Shown here: piece by piece, positions 8,626-21,183 of the stretch | Layout: each line of letters opens with the position of its first letter | Position numbering within the stretch: position 1 is the first letter of the stretch | NCBI RefSeq assembly: GCF_014652355.1 | Contig: NZ_BMYQ01000009.1 | Location: 62,001-126,000, forward strand | Direction: 5' to 3' | From: Gemmobacter lanyuensis | Lineage (GTDB): Bacteria; Pseudomonadota; Alphaproteobacteria; Rhodobacterales; Rhodobacteraceae | DNA length: 64,000 bases | Position numbers and translations under genes: made by a program | Notes under the pieces: generated by a model | The model's input: only the letters and a program-made list of their open reading frames with translations | Told to the model about the DNA's origin: nothing | The model's database searches: none

Positions 8626-8987
8626 GGCACTTGCTCCTCTCCAGCGGGCAGTTCGCCCGAAACATCGACGGGGGCGTTGATGTCAGGCAGGGGCAGGTCA
8701 GGCATCGGATAGGCAATCTGGCTGGACTGGCCGAATTGCTCCGGCTCCAGCGGCAAAAGGCCCAGACGGTCGAAATTGATGGTCGAAAGTTCGCGCAGCC
8801 GGTCGGGGCGGTTCAGATAGGCCCATTCGGCGCGCTGGATCGACAGCGCATCGCGCAGATCTGCGATTTCGGCATTCAGCCGGGCCACATCCTTCAGCGC
8901 CTGCTGGGTGGCGTAGTTTTCGGTATAGGCCCAGAATCCCAGCCCGATCACCGAGGCAAAGGTCAACAGATAGACGAGCGCACGCAT
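8622..8987 (-). CDS. ftsL: Cell-division protein FtsL
   Basis: A 121-residue bitopic membrane protein. One hydrophobic segment lies at about residues 4-21, followed by a short coiled-coil-like stretch (ALKDVARLNAEIADLRDAL) and a periplasmic tail. Size, topology and position between rsmH and ftsI identify FtsL, which forms a complex with FtsB/FtsQ and helps activate FtsWI. Sequence conservation in this family is low, so context carries much of the call. The ATG overlaps the rsmH stop by one base. Confidence 0.88.
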   Translation of the reverse strand: MRALVYLLTFASVIGLGFWAYTENYATQQALKDVARLNAEIADLRDALSIQRAEWAYLNRPDRLRELSTINFDRLGLLPLEPEQFGQSSQIAYPMPDLPLPDINAPVDVSGELPAGEEQVP

Positions 8988-9967
8988 CAGCGGCGTCCTC
9001 CTTTCTGGCGTAGCAGCGGCACGTCAATGGCCGCAAAGTCGAGCTTGTGCGCGGGCGCGGTGGTGCGAAGCCCCACCCGCAGCTTGGCCGAACGCGAGCG
9101 CGGGTTTTCGGCCAGTTCCACATCATCCGGGCCGACGGCGCGGCGGGTCAGCAGGGTGAAGCTCGGCGCAGGGCCGGCCTGCGTGGGCGCATAGCGGTTG
9201 CCCTGCGATTCCGTGGTGCGAGTTTGGAAGAACCGTTTGACGATGCGGTCTTCCAGGCTGTGGAAAGTCACGACCGCCAGCTTTCCGCCCGGTTTCAGCG
9301 CACGCTCCGCCGCGGCAAGCCCCTGTGCCAGCTCATCAAATTCGGCGTTCACCGCGATACGAATCGCCTGGAAGCTGCGGGTGGCAGGGTGGCTCTGACC
9401 AAATTTCGGGCGCGGCAAGCAGCTTGCCACGATCTCGGCCAGTTGCAGGGTGGTGGCGATGGGTCCGGCCTTGCGGGCCTCGACAATCGCCCGCGCGATG
9501 CGGCGCGAGGCGCGTTCCTCGCCGTAAAGATACAGGATGTCGGCCAGCACGGCCTCATCGGTTTCGTTGACCAGATCAGCGGCGGATCGGCCTTCCTGGC
9601 TCATCCGCATGTCAAGCGGGCCGTCCTTCTGAAAGGAAAAGCCGCGCTCGGCCTGATCCAGCTGCATCGAAGATACGCCCAGATCCAGCACGATCCCGTC
9701 CAGATCCTGCGCATAGGTATCAAGCTGCGAGAAGGTCCCCGCCACCAGCTGCAGCCGGTCGCCATAATCACCTGCCCAGGCCGCTGCCATCTGAAGCGCC
9801 AGCGGATCCCGGTCCACCCCGATCACCAGATCAGCACCTGCGGTCAAAAGGCCCCGCGTATAGCCCCCTGCCCCGAAGGTGCCATCCAGCCAGCGCCCCG
9901 TTACGGGCGCGCAGGCATCGAGCAGCGGCCGCAAGAGCACCGGAATGTGCGGTGCGCGTTCGGCCAT
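8987..9967 (-). CDS. rsmH: 16S rRNA (cytosine1402-N4)-methyltransferase RsmH
   Basis: RsmH (MraW) methylates N4 of C1402 in the ribosomal P site using S-adenosylmethionine. The 326-residue protein begins [12 protein letters not shown] and has the SAM-binding [11 protein letters not shown] loop. The [10 protein letters not shown] motif and the conserved [16 protein letters not shown] block near the C-terminus are also present. It starts 3 bp after the mraZ stop and overlaps ftsL by one base, the usual second place in a dcw cluster. Confidence 0.96.
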
Positions 9968-9970
9968 GGC

Positions 9971-10492
9971 TTACTCCTCGGGATCGTGGGGCAGAAGGGA
10001 CAGAAGGTCGGCGCCATCCGGCAGGTCGAGCGCGATCTCTTCCTGCGCGGCCATTTCGGCGTCGTAATCCTCGCGTCGCCAGATCTGGAAGGTATCGAGA
10101 GTGCCTGCAAAGGTCGCCTCGGCCCCATCCTTCAGAGCGTCGGAATCCAGCCCCACGCGTTCGCGCACCTTGGGCGGCAGCACGATCCGGCCATCGTCAT
10201 CGACCTCGACCAGCTGCGACAGGGTGATGTAATTGCGTTCCAGCGCCTTGCGCTGCGGGCTGCCTGCGGGCAGGCGGCGGATGCGCGCCTCAAGGCGCTT
10301 CATCTCGGCGATGGTATAGCATTCGACGAACTGGCGCGCAGCACCCCCGCCGTAGACCATCACGAATTTCGGGCGGCTGCCGTCAAAGGCGGGGTCGCCA
10401 GCTTCGAGGACGCGCCGGAACGACGCCGGGATCGAAACCCGCGCCTTCCCGTCAACCTTTTGGTTGAACTCGCCTCTGAATGCTTCTGACAC
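9971..10492 (-). CDS. mraZ: Transcriptional regulator MraZ
   Basis: MraZ is an AbrB/SpoVT-fold DNA-binding protein that forms ring oligomers and represses its own dcw operon in other bacteria. I start it at the GTG at 10492 (VSEAFRGEFNQK), preceded by AGAGGG, giving 173 residues. A longer in-frame reading exists but would run through the terminator hairpin at 10583-10616. Both swapped-hairpin repeats are visible, each with the DxxxR signature: FNQKVDGKARVSIP near residue 7 and LVEVDDDGRIVLPP. It heads the operon; possible targets are the TGGGA repeats at 11106-11173. Confidence 0.93.
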   Translation of the reverse strand: MSEAFRGEFNQKVDGKARVSIPASFRRVLEAGDPAFDGSRPKFVMVYGGGAARQFVECYTIAEMKRLEARIRRLPAGSPQRKALERNYITLSQLVEVDDDGRIVLPPKVRERVGLDSDALKDGAEATFAGTLDTFQIWRREDYDAEMAAQEEIALDLPDGADLLSLLPHDPEE

Positions 10493-10572
10493 GACCCTCT
10501 GTCCCAGTCCGGCCTGTTTTTGCCTGCCCCGGCCCCCAAGCCGCGGCGTTTTGTTTGTTTGCTTGCCGACCC

Positions 10573-10616
10573 GAATGAAAACGGCGGACCGGGCGGCTGC
10601 CACTGCCCGATCCGCC
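10573..10616 (-). terminator. Intrinsic terminator inside the mraZ leader
   Basis: On the minus strand a 12-bp stem (10605-10616 with 10583-10594, one G-U pair) closes a 10-nt loop and is followed by GTTTTCATTC. It lies about 80 nt upstream of the mraZ start codon and inside the presumed transcript. It would therefore release a short RNA and lower read-through into the dcw genes. Confidence 0.82.
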
Positions 10617-10866
10617 GACTGTCCCATCGCTGGGTCGGCCCGGCTGCGCGTGCCACCTGGGGGAGATGTCTGCTCGCCCGCGCGCCGGTCGTATTTGGGA
10701 TGACAGAGGGGCCTGTATGAAACCTGCTTTTCGCCTGTGGGGTCTTAGCGCCCCGTGTTTTCAATTTCCCGCCGTCATCCGGTAAGACAGGGATGCCACG
10801 GGAAATCATGGGACGCAACGGTTTTTTCTGGACCACATTGGGGCAGAGCGGCCGCAAATCAGGCGC
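10578..10866 (-). ncRNA. UpsM-like small RNA from the dcw 5' leader
   Basis: The segment upstream of mraZ looks like a structured leader that ends in an intrinsic terminator (10573-10616). Inside it are a hairpin with 8-bp arms ATTTCCCG/CGGGAAAT (10764-10771 and 10799-10806) with a nested CATCC/GGATG stem, and a GGGG/CCCC stem near 10738-10755. With the candidate promoter at 10873-10900 the RNA would be about 290 nt. From memory, Rhodobacter sphaeroides makes an abundant sRNA, UpsM, from exactly this position. Homology is inferred from position and architecture, not from an alignment. The 5' end is approximate. Confidence 0.6.
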
Positions 10867-10872
10867 TGACAC

Positions 10873-10900
10873 AGTATATAGTCCGCCTTCGGCCATTAAG
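10873..10900 (-). promoter_or_regulatory. Candidate promoter of the dcw leader
   Basis: On the minus strand a TATACT -10 (10873-10878) and a weak CTTAAT -35 (10895-10900) are separated by 16 bp. Transcription would start near 10866, about 375 nt before the mraZ start codon. The -10 is good and the -35 is poor. Confidence 0.4.
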
Positions 10901-12310: not shown

Positions 12311-12473
12311 GTTTCGATCTCCGATCTTTGGGCGCCAAACTTCCGCAGCCACCGCGAAAGGGCAAGGGGCGGTTGACCAGATGTACAAAATTTGGGCAGA
12401 TCGCCCAATGACGCTACCGGCAGTCGTGATTAGTTATGCGTCATCCGCATAGCCGCAATGCGGCGAGTCCGGA

Positions 12474-12501
12474 TTGTGCAGGTGCAGCAAATGCCCCATT
12501 T
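12474..12501 (+). promoter_or_regulatory. RpoH-type (heat-shock sigma) promoter of the DUF1127/sRNA locus
   Basis: A TTGTGC -35 (12474-12479) and a CCCCATTT -10 (12494-12501) are 14 bp apart. The -10 matches the sigma-32 consensus CCCCATNT exactly. It lies about 80 bp before the DUF1127 start. From memory, the homologous Rhodobacter sphaeroides locus is driven by RpoHI/RpoHII, which fits. Confidence 0.6.
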
Positions 12502-12582
12502 TGGGTTCAACGAAACGGCGCGGGTCGGACGACAGACCGAAACAGCCCCAGCCGATCATCGAACGACACAAGGCAAACCGAA

Positions 12583-12798
12583 ATGGCTTTTGTAAACACG
12601 ACCCGCATCGCACAAGACAGCTTCGGCGACCGCGCCGAACGCTTCTTCGCCTCGATCCGCAAATCGCTGGCACAGCGCGCGATCTACCGTCAAACCGTGC
12701 GTGAACTGAACGCGCTTTCGGCCAAGGAACTGGAAGATCTGGGCATGCACCGCTCCATGATCACCGACCTGGCCCGCGAAGCCGCCTACGGGAAATAA
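12583..12798 (+). CDS. DUF1127 small protein, CcaF1-like
   Basis: A 71-residue basic protein. Its C-terminal half (YRQTVRELNALSAKELEDLGMHRSMITDLAREAAY) is the DUF1127 domain: a helical, arginine-rich segment with the conserved L-x-x-L-xx-KEL-x-DLG pattern. I take the ATG at 12583; an in-frame start about 150 bp earlier would read through the promoter. The RNA hairpin array follows 10 bp after the stop, so the array probably lies in its 3' region and shares its promoter. In R. sphaeroides the matching protein, CcaF1, is described as an RNA-binding factor in sRNA processing and stress responses. That function is transferred by synteny and family, not shown here. Confidence 0.85.
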   Translation: MAFVNTTRIAQDSFGDRAERFFASIRKSLAQRAIYRQTVRELNALSAKELEDLGMHRSMITDLAREAAYGK

Positions 12799-12808
12799 GA
12801 TTTCCTGC

Positions 12809-12875
12809 CTGGCCCTCTCCTCCTCCCTGGGGCCAGCAGCGAGAGCGACGATGCCACTCCTCCCGGTGTCGTCGC
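12809..12875 (+). ncRNA. Cuckoo/CcsR-like RNA, pair A
   Basis: Two hairpins with pyrimidine loops. The first (12809-12836) has a 7-bp stem CTGGCCC/GGGCCAG around a loop holding CTCCTCCTCCC. The second (12845-12875) has GCGACGA/TCGTCGC with an inner CAC/GTG and the shorter loop motif CTCCTCCC. The exposed CCUCC matches the anti-Shine-Dalgarno sequence of 16S rRNA, so the RNA could pair with ribosome-binding sites. A linker with a small GGAAG/CTTCC hairpin (12884-12899) follows. The two-hairpin form and position after DUF1127 match the cuckoo/CcsR family as I recall it. Confidence 0.75.
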
Positions 12876-12906
12876 AAGAATAGGGAAGTCCCGGCTTCCA
12901 GACAGA

Positions 12907-12977
12907 TTGCGCGGCTCCTCCTCCTCCCTGAGCCGGACGCAAAGCGGCGGTCCCCTCCTCCTCCCTGGGATCGTCGC
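12907..12977 (+). ncRNA. Cuckoo/CcsR-like RNA, pair B
   Basis: The first hairpin (12907-12942) pairs TTGCG and CGGCTC with GAGCCG and CGCAA, with a 2-nt bulge. The second (12944-12977) has an 11-bp stem, GCGGCGGTCCC with GGGATCGTCGC, including two G-U pairs. Both loops are CTCCTCCTCCCT. The G-U pairs and the covariation with other units argue for RNA structure rather than chance repeats. The linker after it carries a GGGGC/GCCCC hairpin (12987-13000). Confidence 0.78.
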
Positions 12978-13013
12978 GAGCCTACAGGGGCAGAAGCCCC
13001 GAACTGGATCCTC

Positions 13014-13078
13014 GGCCCCTCCTCCTCCCTGGGCCTTGGGTTCTGCGGCGGCCCCCTCCTCCTCCCTGGGGTCGCCGC
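13014..13078 (+). ncRNA. Cuckoo/CcsR-like RNA, pair C
   Basis: First hairpin 13014-13035, stem GGCCC/GGGCC. Second hairpin 13045-13078, an 11-bp stem GCGGCGGCCCC with GGGGTCGCCGC, one G-U pair. Both loops are the 12-nt CTCCTCCTCCCT. The following linker holds a GGGCGC/GCGCCC hairpin (13091-13105) and then GAACnnGATCC, the same arrangement as in the linker before this pair. Confidence 0.78.
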
Positions 13079-13114
13079 CCTCCCCTTTCCGGGCGCCAAG
13101 CGCCCGAACAAGAT

Positions 13115-13181
13115 CCTTGGCCCCTCCTCCTCCCTGGGTCATGGAACCTGCGAAGCCCCCTCCTCCTCCCTAGGGCGACGC
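13115..13181 (+). ncRNA. Cuckoo/CcsR-like RNA, pair D
   Basis: First hairpin 13115-13144: GGCCC/GGGTC extended by CC and GG with one T-T mismatch. Second hairpin 13150-13181: GCG and GCCC pair with GGGC and CGC across an AA/GA internal loop. The loops again carry CTCCTCCTCCC. Stems are weaker than in pairs B and C, but the loops are unchanged, so selection seems to act on the loop. Only 10 nt separate it from pair E. Confidence 0.75.
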
Positions 13182-13191
13182 GCAAGACAGA

Positions 13192-13270
13192 TGCCGCCCC
13201 TCCTCCTCCCTGGGCGGTCACTGACGGAACGGCGGCCCCCCTCCTCCTCCCTGGGTGCCGCCGTTTTCCG
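13192..13270 (+). ncRNA. Cuckoo/CcsR-like RNA, pair E, with terminator
   Basis: First hairpin 13192-13219, stem CCGCCC/GGGCGG extended by TG/CA around a T bulge. Second hairpin 13229-13264, ACGGCGGC/GCCGCCGT plus an inner CCC/GGG. Both loops hold CTCCTCCTCCCT. The second hairpin is followed directly by TTTTCCGTTTC, so it doubles as the Rho-independent terminator of the whole locus. This gives a transcript of roughly 760 nt from the promoter at 12474-12501. Confidence 0.78.
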
Positions 13271-13376
13271 TTTCGGGGACCGGTTTTCACCCCCGCTTGC
13301 CCCTTGCATCACCGCCGCCGCGCGGCCAAGGTCCGGCCAAACCGCGACCAAAGCCAGACTGCGACCGAAGGATGTG

Positions 13377-14519
13377 ATGCGCCTTTCCCTGATTTCCGCC
13401 GCCCTTGTTGCCGCCCTGGTGGGCTATGGCTCGACCATCGCGCTGGTGCTGGCTGCCGCGCAGGCGGTGGGGGCCACGCCTGCACAGACCACAAGCTGGG
13501 TGCTGGCGATCTGCCTGGGCAAGGCACTGGGGTCGGCGGTGCTGAGCTGGCAGACCCGCGTGCCGGTGGTGCTGGCCTGGTCCACCCCCGGGGCCGCGCT
13601 CATTGCAGCAACCCACGGCATCACCATGCCGCAGGCGGTGGGGGCCTTTGTGCTTGCCGGGGTGCTGGTCGCATTGACCGGGGCGCTGCGCCCGCTGGGG
13701 CGGCTGGTCGCACTGATCCCCGATGGCATCGCGGGGGGCATGCTGGCCGGGGTGCTGCTGCCGTTTTGCCTGAAACTGCCAGCCAGCGCGGGCGCCCTGC
13801 CCCTGCTGATTCTGCCCGTGGCGCTGCTCTTCGCGCTGGTGCGTCTGAAGAACCCGGCGATTGCGGTGCTGGTGGCGCTGGCGGCCGGGGTTGCCGGGGC
13901 CTTTGCGCTGGGGCTGGCGGGTCCGGTGGATCTGACCCTGCCCTGGCCCAACCTGACCTTCATCGCGCCCGCGTTTGACCCCGCCGTGCTGGCGGGCCTC
14001 GCGCTGCCGCTCTACCTTGTCACCATGGCTTCGCAGAACCTGCCGGGCTTCGCCACGCTGCGCGCCGCAGGGTATGAACCGCCTGTGCGCGCGGGGCTGG
14101 GTGTCACCGGGGGGATTTCCGCGGTGATCGGGCTGTTTGGCGCGCATACGATTTCGATGGCCGCAATTACGGCCGCGATCTGTCTGGGCGATGATGTCCA
14201 CCCCGACCGCAATCGCCGCTGGGTGGTGGGGCTGGTCTATGCCGGGGTCTGGGTTGGGCTGGGCGTGCTAAGCCCGCTGATCCTGGCCATGCTTTCCGCG
14301 CTTCCGACTGAATTGATCACCGCCATCGTGGCCTTGGCGCTGCTTGGCCCCTTCATGGGGGCCGCGACAGGGGCCTTCGGCGCGGCGGAAACCCGCTTTC
14401 CCGCCGCGATCACGCTGGCCGTCACCGCATCGGGCACCCCCGCACTGGGGATCGGCGCGGCGTTTTGGGGGCTGATAGCGGGGCTTCTGGTTCATGCACT
14501 GAACCGCCTGCCCCGCTGA
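13377..14519 (+). CDS. BenE-family benzoate/H+ symporter-like transporter
   Basis: A 380-residue integral membrane protein with about eleven to twelve hydrophobic segments, the length and pattern of BenE transporters. Conserved parts include PVVLAWSTPGAAL early and the NLPGFATLRAAGY loop near the middle. No benzoate catabolic genes are nearby, so the substrate is uncertain. I start it at the ATG at 13377; longer readings run into the RNA hairpin array. It converges on the uvrD-like gene with no gap between stop codons. Confidence 0.85.
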   Translation: MRLSLISAALVAALVGYGSTIALVLAAAQAVGATPAQTTSWVLAICLGKALGSAVLSWQTRVPVVLAWSTPGAALIAATHGITMPQAVGAFVLAGVLVALTGALRPLGRLVALIPDGIAGGMLAGVLLPFCLKLPASAGALPLLILPVALLFALVRLKNPAIAVLVALAAGVAGAFALGLAGPVDLTLPWPNLTFIAPAFDPAVLAGLALPLYLVTMASQNLPGFATLRAAGYEPPVRAGLGVTGGISAVIGLFGAHTISMAAITAAICLGDDVHPDRNRRWVVGLVYAGVWVGLGVLSPLILAMLSALPTELITAIVALALLGPFMGAATGAFGAAETRFPAAITLAVTASGTPALGIGAAFWGLIAGLLVHALNRLPR

Positions 14520-20785: not shown

Positions 20786-20860
20786 GCGGGCGTAGCTCAG
20801 GGGTAGAGCATAACCTTGCCAAGGTTAGGGTCGTGAGTTCGAATCTCATCGCCCGCTCCA
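20786..20860 (+). tRNA. tRNA-Gly (GCC), copy 1
   Basis: A 75-nt cloverleaf with acceptor GCGGGCG/CGCCCGC, discriminator T and encoded CCA. The anticodon arm AACCT/AGGTT encloses GCC at 20818-20820, and the T-loop is TTCGAAT. It reads GGC/GGT glycine codons. It is 33 bp from copy 2 and probably shares its transcript. Confidence 0.97.
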
Positions 20861-20893
20861 GTTCGGACCCACGTCGCAAGACGGCCACAGGAT

Positions 20894-20968
20894 GCGGGCG
20901 TAGCTCAGGGGTAGAGCATAACCTTGCCAAGGTTAGGGTCGTGAGTTCGAATCTCATCGCCCGCTCCA
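20894..20968 (+). tRNA. tRNA-Gly (GCC), copy 2
   Basis: Identical in sequence to copy 1, with anticodon GCC at 20926-20928 and encoded CCA. It is followed 12 bp later by an intrinsic terminator that would end the two-tRNA transcript. Confidence 0.97.
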
Positions 20969-20980
20969 TGTGACGACAGC

Positions 20981-21005
20981 AAGGCGCCCCTTCGGGCGCC
21001 TTTTG
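20981..21005 (+). terminator. Intrinsic terminator after tRNA-Gly copy 2
   Basis: Stem AGGCGCCC/GGGCGCCT with a short CTTC-like loop (20982-21001), followed by TTTTGTC. Confidence 0.85.
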
Positions 21006-21065
21006 TCATCTCCGCTCCCCATCAAAGCACCGCCAAGCCCATGAAAAGAAAACCGGATTCCCCTC

Positions 21066-21093
21066 TTGCGGTCCGTTTTCCAAAGGGCTAGAA
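21066..21093 (+). promoter_or_regulatory. Candidate promoter of tRNA-Gly copy 3
   Basis: TTGCGG (21066-21071) and CTAGAA (21088-21093), spacer 16 bp, end 15 bp before the mature tRNA. The preceding CCCCTC resembles the region before copy 1. Confidence 0.45.
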
Positions 21094-21108
21094 GTCCGCT
21101 TACGGAGT

Positions 21109-21183
21109 GCGGGCGTAGCTCAGGGGTAGAGCATAACCTTGCCAAGGTTAGGGTCGTGAGTTCGAATCTCATCGCCCGCTCCA
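21109..21183 (+). tRNA. tRNA-Gly (GCC), copy 3
   Basis: Third identical 75-nt tRNA-Gly, anticodon GCC at 21141-21143, CCA encoded. It has its own apparent promoter and terminator, so it is a separate transcription unit from copies 1 and 2. Confidence 0.97.

Follow-up and report, generated by a model that had tools for sequence, protein, structure and literature searches.

A ten-hairpin anti-Shine-Dalgarno RNA array of the CcsR/cuckoo kind that follows a DUF1127 gene in Gemmobacter lanyuensis

The closest described relatives of this locus, cited throughout for the passages that concern them, come from Rhodobacter sphaeroides and from Rhizobiales. In R. sphaeroides, four CcsR RNAs lie behind the DUF1127 gene ccaF1, a CIN1-type locus being a short DUF1127 gene accompanied by CcsR-like sRNAs (PMC10253847). 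There, ccaF1 and CcsR1-4 (RF02791) form one transcript that starts from an RpoHI/RpoHII promoter and is cut by RNase E with the involvement of CcaF1 (PMC10253847, PMC8625941, PMC7866481). CcsR RNAs interact with Hfq in this species, and they target the FlhR mRNA (PMC8307010). The cuckoo RNAs of Rhizobiales, including SmelA075, SmelA099 and NfeR1 (ar14, RF02344), have two to four adjacent hairpins each (PMC4504443), with CCUCCUCCC in every loop and variable stems (PMC3927594, PMC10746234). NfeR1 of S. meliloti silences mRNAs at the start site through three redundant anti-Shine-Dalgarno (anti-SD) loops, a mode of action that works there without Hfq (PMC10746234).

Anatomy and classification of the array

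We analyzed a window of 64,000 nucleotides from the G. lanyuensis genome, in which an initial annotation had placed ten hairpins with anti-SD-type loops at positions 12809-13270, directly behind a DUF1127 gene. All ten hairpins are present, each closed by its stem, which confirms a real ten-hairpin array with CUCCUCCC-type loops; its true extent is about 12800-13271 (Table 1). The preceding ORF is indeed a DUF1127 gene, with its stop codon at 12796-12798 and the array following from 12800. Nine of the ten loops contain CTCCTCCTCCC, CUCCUCCUCCC and the cuckoo loop CCUCCUCCC, while the loop of hairpin 2 has CUCCUCCC and, of CTCCTCCTCCC, only CTCCTCCC; the array loops contain CCUCC, the anti-SD core. 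Across the window, CTCCTCCTCCC occurs nine times on the plus strand, always within the array, and never on the minus strand, and the eight copies of CCTCCTCCTCCCT in the G. lanyuensis genome all lie inside the array. Hairpin 10, with a T-rich tail after it, is probably the terminator of the transcript, judging from its sequence; it was not flagged by a simple terminator scan, which took loops of 3-8 only. The neighbors of the array include an Mrp-like ATPase gene (PF10609) on the minus strand, a BenE-type transporter gene (13377-14519) and a UvrD-type helicase gene.

Table 1. Positions of the hairpin array, its DUF1127 gene and the predicted upstream elements in the window
Feature	Position	Strand	Evidence
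LysR-type (VtlR/LsrB-like) box, candidate: half-site ATGC 12436-12439, 15-mer CGCATAGCCGCAATG 12446-12460	12436-12460	+	11/15 to TGCATGGCTGCATTG
RpoH-like promoter: TTGTGC 12474-12479, CCCCATTTT 12494-12502	12474-12502	+	conserved spacing; predicted function
DUF1127 protein gene, 71 aa, CcaF1-like	12583-12798	+	PF06568, E 5.9e-11
Unit 1: hairpins 1 (12801-12844) and 2 (12845-12875)	12800-12880	+	fold z -4.28; Rfam CcsR1 52.2 bits
Linker mini-hairpin 1	12884-12899	+	RNAalifold consensus, eight same-genus arrays; alone z -1.00
Unit 2: hairpins 3 (12907-12942) and 4 (12944-12977)	12907-12977	+	arm swap, covariation; fold z -1.75
Linker mini-hairpin 2	12987-13000	+	RNAalifold consensus; z -3.15
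Unit 3: hairpins 5 (13006-13043) and 6 (13045-13078)	13006-13078	+	z -4.23; arm swap, covariation
Linker mini-hairpin 3	13090-13106	+	RNAalifold consensus; z -3.69; outside covariation-counted pairs
Unit 4, four hairpins without long linker	13114-13271	+	gaps 24, 28, 29; ar14 48.6 bits over 13144-13267
Unit 4 members: hairpins 7 (13114-13145), 8 (13149-13182), 9 (13188-13223), 10 (13224-13271)		+	

At gathering scores, an Rfam scan of the whole window returned no entry in the array. The covariance-model check proposed in the initial annotation fell short: the best CcsR1 match, over unit 1 (52.2 bits, 12800-12880, E 1.1e-11), lies below the gathering score of 65.3, with further CcsR1 matches of 39.7, 36.2, 30.5 and 21.7 bits. 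For ar14 the best score (48.6 bits, gathering 58.8) falls on hairpins 8-10, and others reach 40.5 and 32.9 bits. Since these scores are below gathering, formal membership of either family is rejected. The 6C RNA (RF01066) has, as does the array, hairpins with C-rich loops, two in its case; it belongs to different bacteria, has a different loop and gave a weak 28.8 bits (E 0.16), far below its gathering score of 47.

By anatomy, locus and structure, the array is of the CcsR/cuckoo kind, as had been annotated, and stands at a CIN1-type locus, where a short DUF1127 gene is found together with CcsR-like sRNAs. As in R. sphaeroides, RNAs of two hairpins with CCUCCUCCC loops come after a DUF1127 gene, and an RpoH-like promoter sequence is common to both; unlike the four pairs of that species, it comprises ten hairpins as 2+2+2+4 and scores below gathering. 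The rhizobial RNAs share with it the loop, the variable stems and two to four hairpins per RNA (2, 2, 2 and 4 by spacing, with RNA ends predicted), whereas the hairpins here are part of one array behind DUF1127, with an ar14 score below gathering. The array therefore belongs to a known kind, to which it adds a well-supported, differently laid-out case.

Pairing and grouping of the hairpins

The stems were examined by exchanging their arms and by covariation. Summed over the ten hairpins, own arms give an energy of -173.2, whereas permuted arms average -100.4 (sd 12.4), and none of 20000 permutations was as low; own arms rank 1 of 120 in the first-hairpin class and likewise in the second-hairpin class. 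Over 63 arrays with 596 hairpins (selection described below), the own-arm mean is -16.8 against -8.4 for swapped arms, own arms being better in 63 of 63 arrays. For covariation, 118 pairs from the ten hairpins and linker mini-hairpins 1 and 2 were named in an alignment of eight same-genus arrays (A1). Compensatory stem changes among relatives, whose absence the initial annotation had named as counting against it, are found: both sides have changed in 24 of the 118 pairs, against 11.2 in shuffles, with as many in none of 500. Paired cells amount to 88.7%, against at most 52.4% for a slid structure, a comparison that is biased toward the structure, drawn from the window itself, and that uses eight related sequences. 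The weakest covariation measure, further pair types, was equalled by 20 of 500 shuffles. Given no structure, RNAalifold returned from the eight arrays ten hairpins and three small linker hairpins, the latter absent from the initial annotation; one pair of mini-hairpin 2 is C-G in three sequences, G-C in three and unpaired in two. Support varies along the array. Hairpin 8 is weak, with just 4+4 pairs and an outer helix paired in 53.3% of cells, and for the unit 13111-13190 the fold does not surpass that of shuffles (z -0.59); the fold of 12901-12983 is also weak (z -1.75), while the other three units have z from -4.15 to -4.28.

These results show that the stems of the array pair in reality, with compensatory changes among the eight same-genus arrays. 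As in cuckoo RNAs, the stems keep their pairing but not their sequence, as seen in the arm swap, the covariation and the 63-array swap.

The loops form a short-period C/T repeat, and we considered whether they are due to chance or to low-complexity CTC repeats that form no RNA structure. The arm-swap and covariation tests refute this, and the constant place behind a DUF1127-like ORF speaks against it as well; we reject it, its probability being practically nil.

The loop-to-loop gaps, in order, are 29, 52, 25, 52, 25, 56, 24, 28 and 29 nt, a spacing that groups the hairpins 2+2+2+4 with three long linkers (52-56 nt), each holding a mini-hairpin. Of the five pairs originally annotated, the first three fit; the fifth has no linker of its own, and the last four hairpins appear to form one unit. 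Ten other genomes of the genus were searched: seven have 2+2+2+4 (L133-L139, the diverged first loop of L135 having been missed by the first hairpin caller), one has 4+2+4 (L140), one shows three hairpins only (L148, genome 87% complete) and one gave no match (G401, 82% complete). Three of these loci are identical in every 40-mer sampled to loci of Gemmobacter serpentinus (L134/L009), G. caeruleus (L135/L013) and a Gemmobacter MAG (L140/L014), in line with a Gemmobacter origin of the window. Linkers of 45 nt or longer number 107 in the 63 arrays; 88 of them (82%) contain a stem of five or more, compared with 31% after letter shuffling. Because there are only three long linkers, mini-hairpins lie in them and the layout recurs in the genus, we regard three predicted two-hairpin RNAs plus a four-hairpin terminal RNA as a better reading than five equal pairs.

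Five separate two-hairpin RNAs, with a cut between hairpins 8 and 9 that would release a fifth CcsR pair from the fourth, seem rather unlikely to us. Pairs are the common unit of such arrays, the layouts 2+2+2+2, 2+2 and 2+2+2 totaling 12 of 63, and Cereibacter johrii (L010), a close relative of R. sphaeroides, has eight hairpins as 2+2+2+2; moreover, AAGACAGAUG before hairpin 9 resembles the end of linker 1. However, the gap between hairpins 8 and 9, at 28 nt, is like those within pairs and not like the three linkers, it has no mini-hairpin in the consensus fold, and the terminal quartet is kept in eight of the ten other genus genomes. An RNase-E-like RNWUU word occurs in 39 of 107 long gaps and in 70 of 426 short gaps, counts that are uncorrected for gap length.

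Arrays and their upstream region across the family

Two copies of CUCCUCCC spaced 18-48 nt apart occur at least once in 340 of 395 genomes of the family, a rough count, as a reversed-pattern control also matches some. A stricter pattern, applied to a sample of the class, matched 17 of 289 genomes: four of the five family members (G. lanyuensis included) and 13 of 284 others. The 63 arrays of at least four hairpins were selected as the window, 20 of 23 loci retrieved by DUF1127 similarity and 42 of 59 retrieved by loop pattern. The similarity loci excluded were L011 (from a strain already represented by another contig), L020 (three hairpins) and L021 (none); many of the loop-pattern loci come from the genomes with the highest counts, and the other 17 show fewer than four hairpins in the stretch examined. 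Arrays in this sample have 4 to 26 hairpins, with a median of 10. The "expanded set" of the initial annotation is thus a relative term: ten hairpins are ordinary for the family.

A DUF1127-like ORF lies upstream of 63 of 63 arrays, including all 42 retrieved by loop pattern alone. A regular expression recognized 58 of them, and the five misses were found by a profile at E 2.1e-18 or better, a search that is partly circular, as the profile was built from up to 40 of the same ORFs. Such arrays are common and variable in the family. In the largest array (L046, G146:C1:334949-336118), with 26 hairpins, a 140-base unit is repeated 6.5 times at 97% identity, from which we conclude that it grew by tandem duplication, evidently recent. 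A second, smaller locus in G. lanyuensis (L171, G000:C6:87406-87449 region) combines a DUF1127 ORF with a single pair of anti-SD hairpins and with a hairpin that resembles a terminator, and a smaller second locus is also present in two other genomes of the genus (L158, L159).

Upstream of the DUF1127 gene, a conserved 15-mer resembles the reverse complement (TGCATGGCTGCATTG) of the VtlR motif CAATGCAGCCATGCA (PMC12595884) and the LsrB consensus GCAT-N3-TG-N3-T (PMC8844928); VtlR control of DUF1127 genes is known in Brucella. The alignment of this region has 14 sequences, three of them out of register (L136, L137, L012), and the box and spacing counts that follow are independent of it. The best upstream match reaches at least 12/15 in 72 of 79 nonredundant arrays and at least 11/15 in 78, of which 76 have it on the plus strand, against 0 and 6 of 79 letter shuffles and 1 and 8 of 77 stretches of array-downstream DNA. 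With L049 and L143 excluded, a plus-strand box scoring 10 or more is present in 77 arrays, of which 66 have the ATGC half-site and 72 have TTG.G[CA]..[GT]CAG, an expression found in 0 shuffles. Box and TTG are separated by 12-13 nt in 70 of these 72 arrays, and C[CT]AT.T follows 21-22 nt after TTG in 43, the other 29 having no match to the expression. This latter distance agrees with the RpoH1 consensus CTTGAA-N16-CCTATAT given in PMC8844928. If TTG is taken as -35, the box would lie at roughly -64 to -50, close to the LsrB box at PabcR1 (-61 to -49; PMC8844928).

The box in the window itself, at 11/15, is non-significant alone (22 matches against 16.1 expected, with 9 of 100 shuffles reaching 22), so that the case for a LysR box rests on conservation in the family. 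At the second loci, the box is TGCATGGCGGCATTG in G. lanyuensis (14/15), 13/15 at L159 and only 11/15, at another place, at L158. A narrower expression for the promoter was present in 49 of 86 arrays of the redundant set and missing from 37, against 24 matches in 1110 random stretches; a sigma-70 scan found no promoter.

As far as searched, in literature that left the founding cuckoo/CcsR/CcaF1 papers outside its scope, a promoter module of such rigid spacing, kept throughout the family in front of the DUF1127 gene, is new, and no paper joined LysR and CcsR. For LsrB together with CcaF1, the only paper among the matches listed was PMC12501420, where LsrB appears once, in the reference list. 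The VtlR/LsrB regulon of Rhizobiales (AbcR sRNAs and DUF1127 genes) shares a LysR-type box upstream of DUF1127 plus anti-SD RNA; in the sources cited for it, sRNAs and DUF1127 genes are separate VtlR targets, whereas here the regulator is a candidate only. The organization of vtlR beside trxB is described as well conserved in Alphaproteobacteria (PMC7486931). In G. lanyuensis, no LysR gene stands beside trxB (L173), where the translations read as Lrp/AsnC-like and Hsp20-like ORFs. The trxB-neighbor search in ten genomes gave a LysR gene in one only, a GcvA-like gene in convergent order in Paracoccus caeni (L175), and a VtlR/LsrB-type regulator was not found by it. AbcR (RF02345) matched 0 of 193 genomes, an uninformative result because no control matched either.

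We consider it an even call whether the DUF1127-anti-SD arrays of Rhodobacteraceae share one ancient RpoH and VtlR/LsrB LysR module, with hairpin number as a dosage setting made by tandem duplication. If so, the redox-linked regulator that in Rhizobiales activates DUF1127 genes and anti-SD sRNAs would control the same functions here, fused in one transcript, and hairpin number (4 to 26) would be a dosage that evolves through tandem duplication. The promoter box offers a testable link from the R. sphaeroides CcaF1-CcsR operon to the rhizobial VtlR/LsrB circuits, and it is relevant to the question of why anti-SD RNAs and DUF1127 proteins occur together.

Proposed mode of action and candidate targets

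Taken as a whole, the explanation that we favor, and hold to be likely, is a stress-induced DUF1127-anti-SD transcript, driven by RpoH and probably a LysR regulator, that is processed and lowers translation. A single transcript would contain the CcaF1-like DUF1127 mRNA with the ten anti-SD hairpins in its 3' part, and would start from the RpoH-type promoter, probably aided by a VtlR/LsrB-like LysR regulator. RNase E, aided by the DUF1127 protein, would cut the long linkers, releasing three RNAs of two hairpins each and a terminal RNA of four. Through their CCUCC loops, these RNAs would pair with the Shine-Dalgarno regions of many mRNAs, probably those of transport and metabolism genes above all, and so lower translation of the targets in heat or oxidative stress, the hairpin copies being redundant and raising the dose. 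We infer this mode of action by analogy, carrying it over from R. sphaeroides and S. meliloti. The DUF1127 family has RNA-binding members, as CcaF1 binds RNA, while Salmonella YjiS, another DUF1127 protein, shows no RNA binding; CcaF1 also complements an Agrobacterium phenotype that depends on protein-protein contact (PMC12501420). By this analogy, DUF1127 proteins may also act by protein contacts instead of RNA, which counts against the favored explanation.

It is unlikely, in our view, that the array works as a multivalent sponge, comparable in its logic to CsrB, whose many identical loops would titrate another RNA or a protein, such as the DUF1127 protein or Hfq, and would not pair with mRNAs. 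Near-identical loops on diverged stems, in up to 26 copies per array, would suit a sponge, as would the RNA binding of CcaF1 (PMC12501420) and the rarity of the full loop complement in the genome; yet RNAs with the same loop have mRNA targets in R. sphaeroides and S. meliloti (PMC8307010, PMC10746234), NfeR1 needs its loops (PMC10746234), and CCUCC is the anti-SD core. General damping of translation, with loops covering the SD sites of most mRNAs and no specific targets, appears less likely still: the loop is complementary to a generic SD and its copy number is high, but relatives have named targets in the sources cited.

For the preferred pairing with SD regions, complements of the loop were sought in the G. 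lanyuensis genome. The full 11-base complement GGGAGGAGGAG occurs 11 times, fewer than its reversed control (13): nine copies come from the opposite strand of the array, one from that of the second locus, and one lies elsewhere. Since the full complement is found once outside anti-SD loops, target pairing must use shorter matches, that is, the SD core and its neighbors. This sole copy (L109/L091, G000:C4:6905-6915) immediately precedes the start codon of an ORF that has no Pfam match. The sequence GGGAGGAGG, which is complementary to the whole CCUCCUCCC loop, has 29 sites, namely nine in the array, two in second-locus loops (other strand) and 18 elsewhere; its reversed control has 37, but contains GGAGG and is hence not neutral. 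At nine GGGAGGAGG sites, all among these 18, an ORF of 60 codons or more has its start codon 2-15 nt downstream. Of five of the nine ORFs compared with Pfam, three have apparent true gene starts (aldehyde dehydrogenase, periplasmic binding protein and TPP enzyme), one has an apparent internal start (UTRA domain from profile position 27) and one has no match. The genes at GGGAGGAGG sites are weak leads as targets, predicted from complementarity. Two of them, encoding an aldehyde dehydrogenase and a periplasmic binding protein, lie about 1.7 kb apart (L127 and L128, G000:C14:46160 and 47848), both with GGGAGGAGG at the ribosome-binding place.

For 16S rRNA, RF00177 and GGATCACCTCCTTTCT both gave no match in the G. 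lanyuensis genome. A 16-base match to the 16S 3' end, TGGATCACCTCCTTTC, occurs once (L131, G000:C6:124299-124314), in a stretch that is not 16S-like.

Elsewhere in the window, three tandem tRNA genes lie at 20786-21180, with equal scores of 68.7 bits each. At 8987-10627 and upstream, rsmH-like and mraZ-like ORFs, recognized by eye in the translations, mark the start of a dcw cluster. The UpsM sRNA of R. sphaeroides derives from the 5' UTR of the dcw cluster (PMC8625941); an UpsM relative may therefore sit near 10470-10900.
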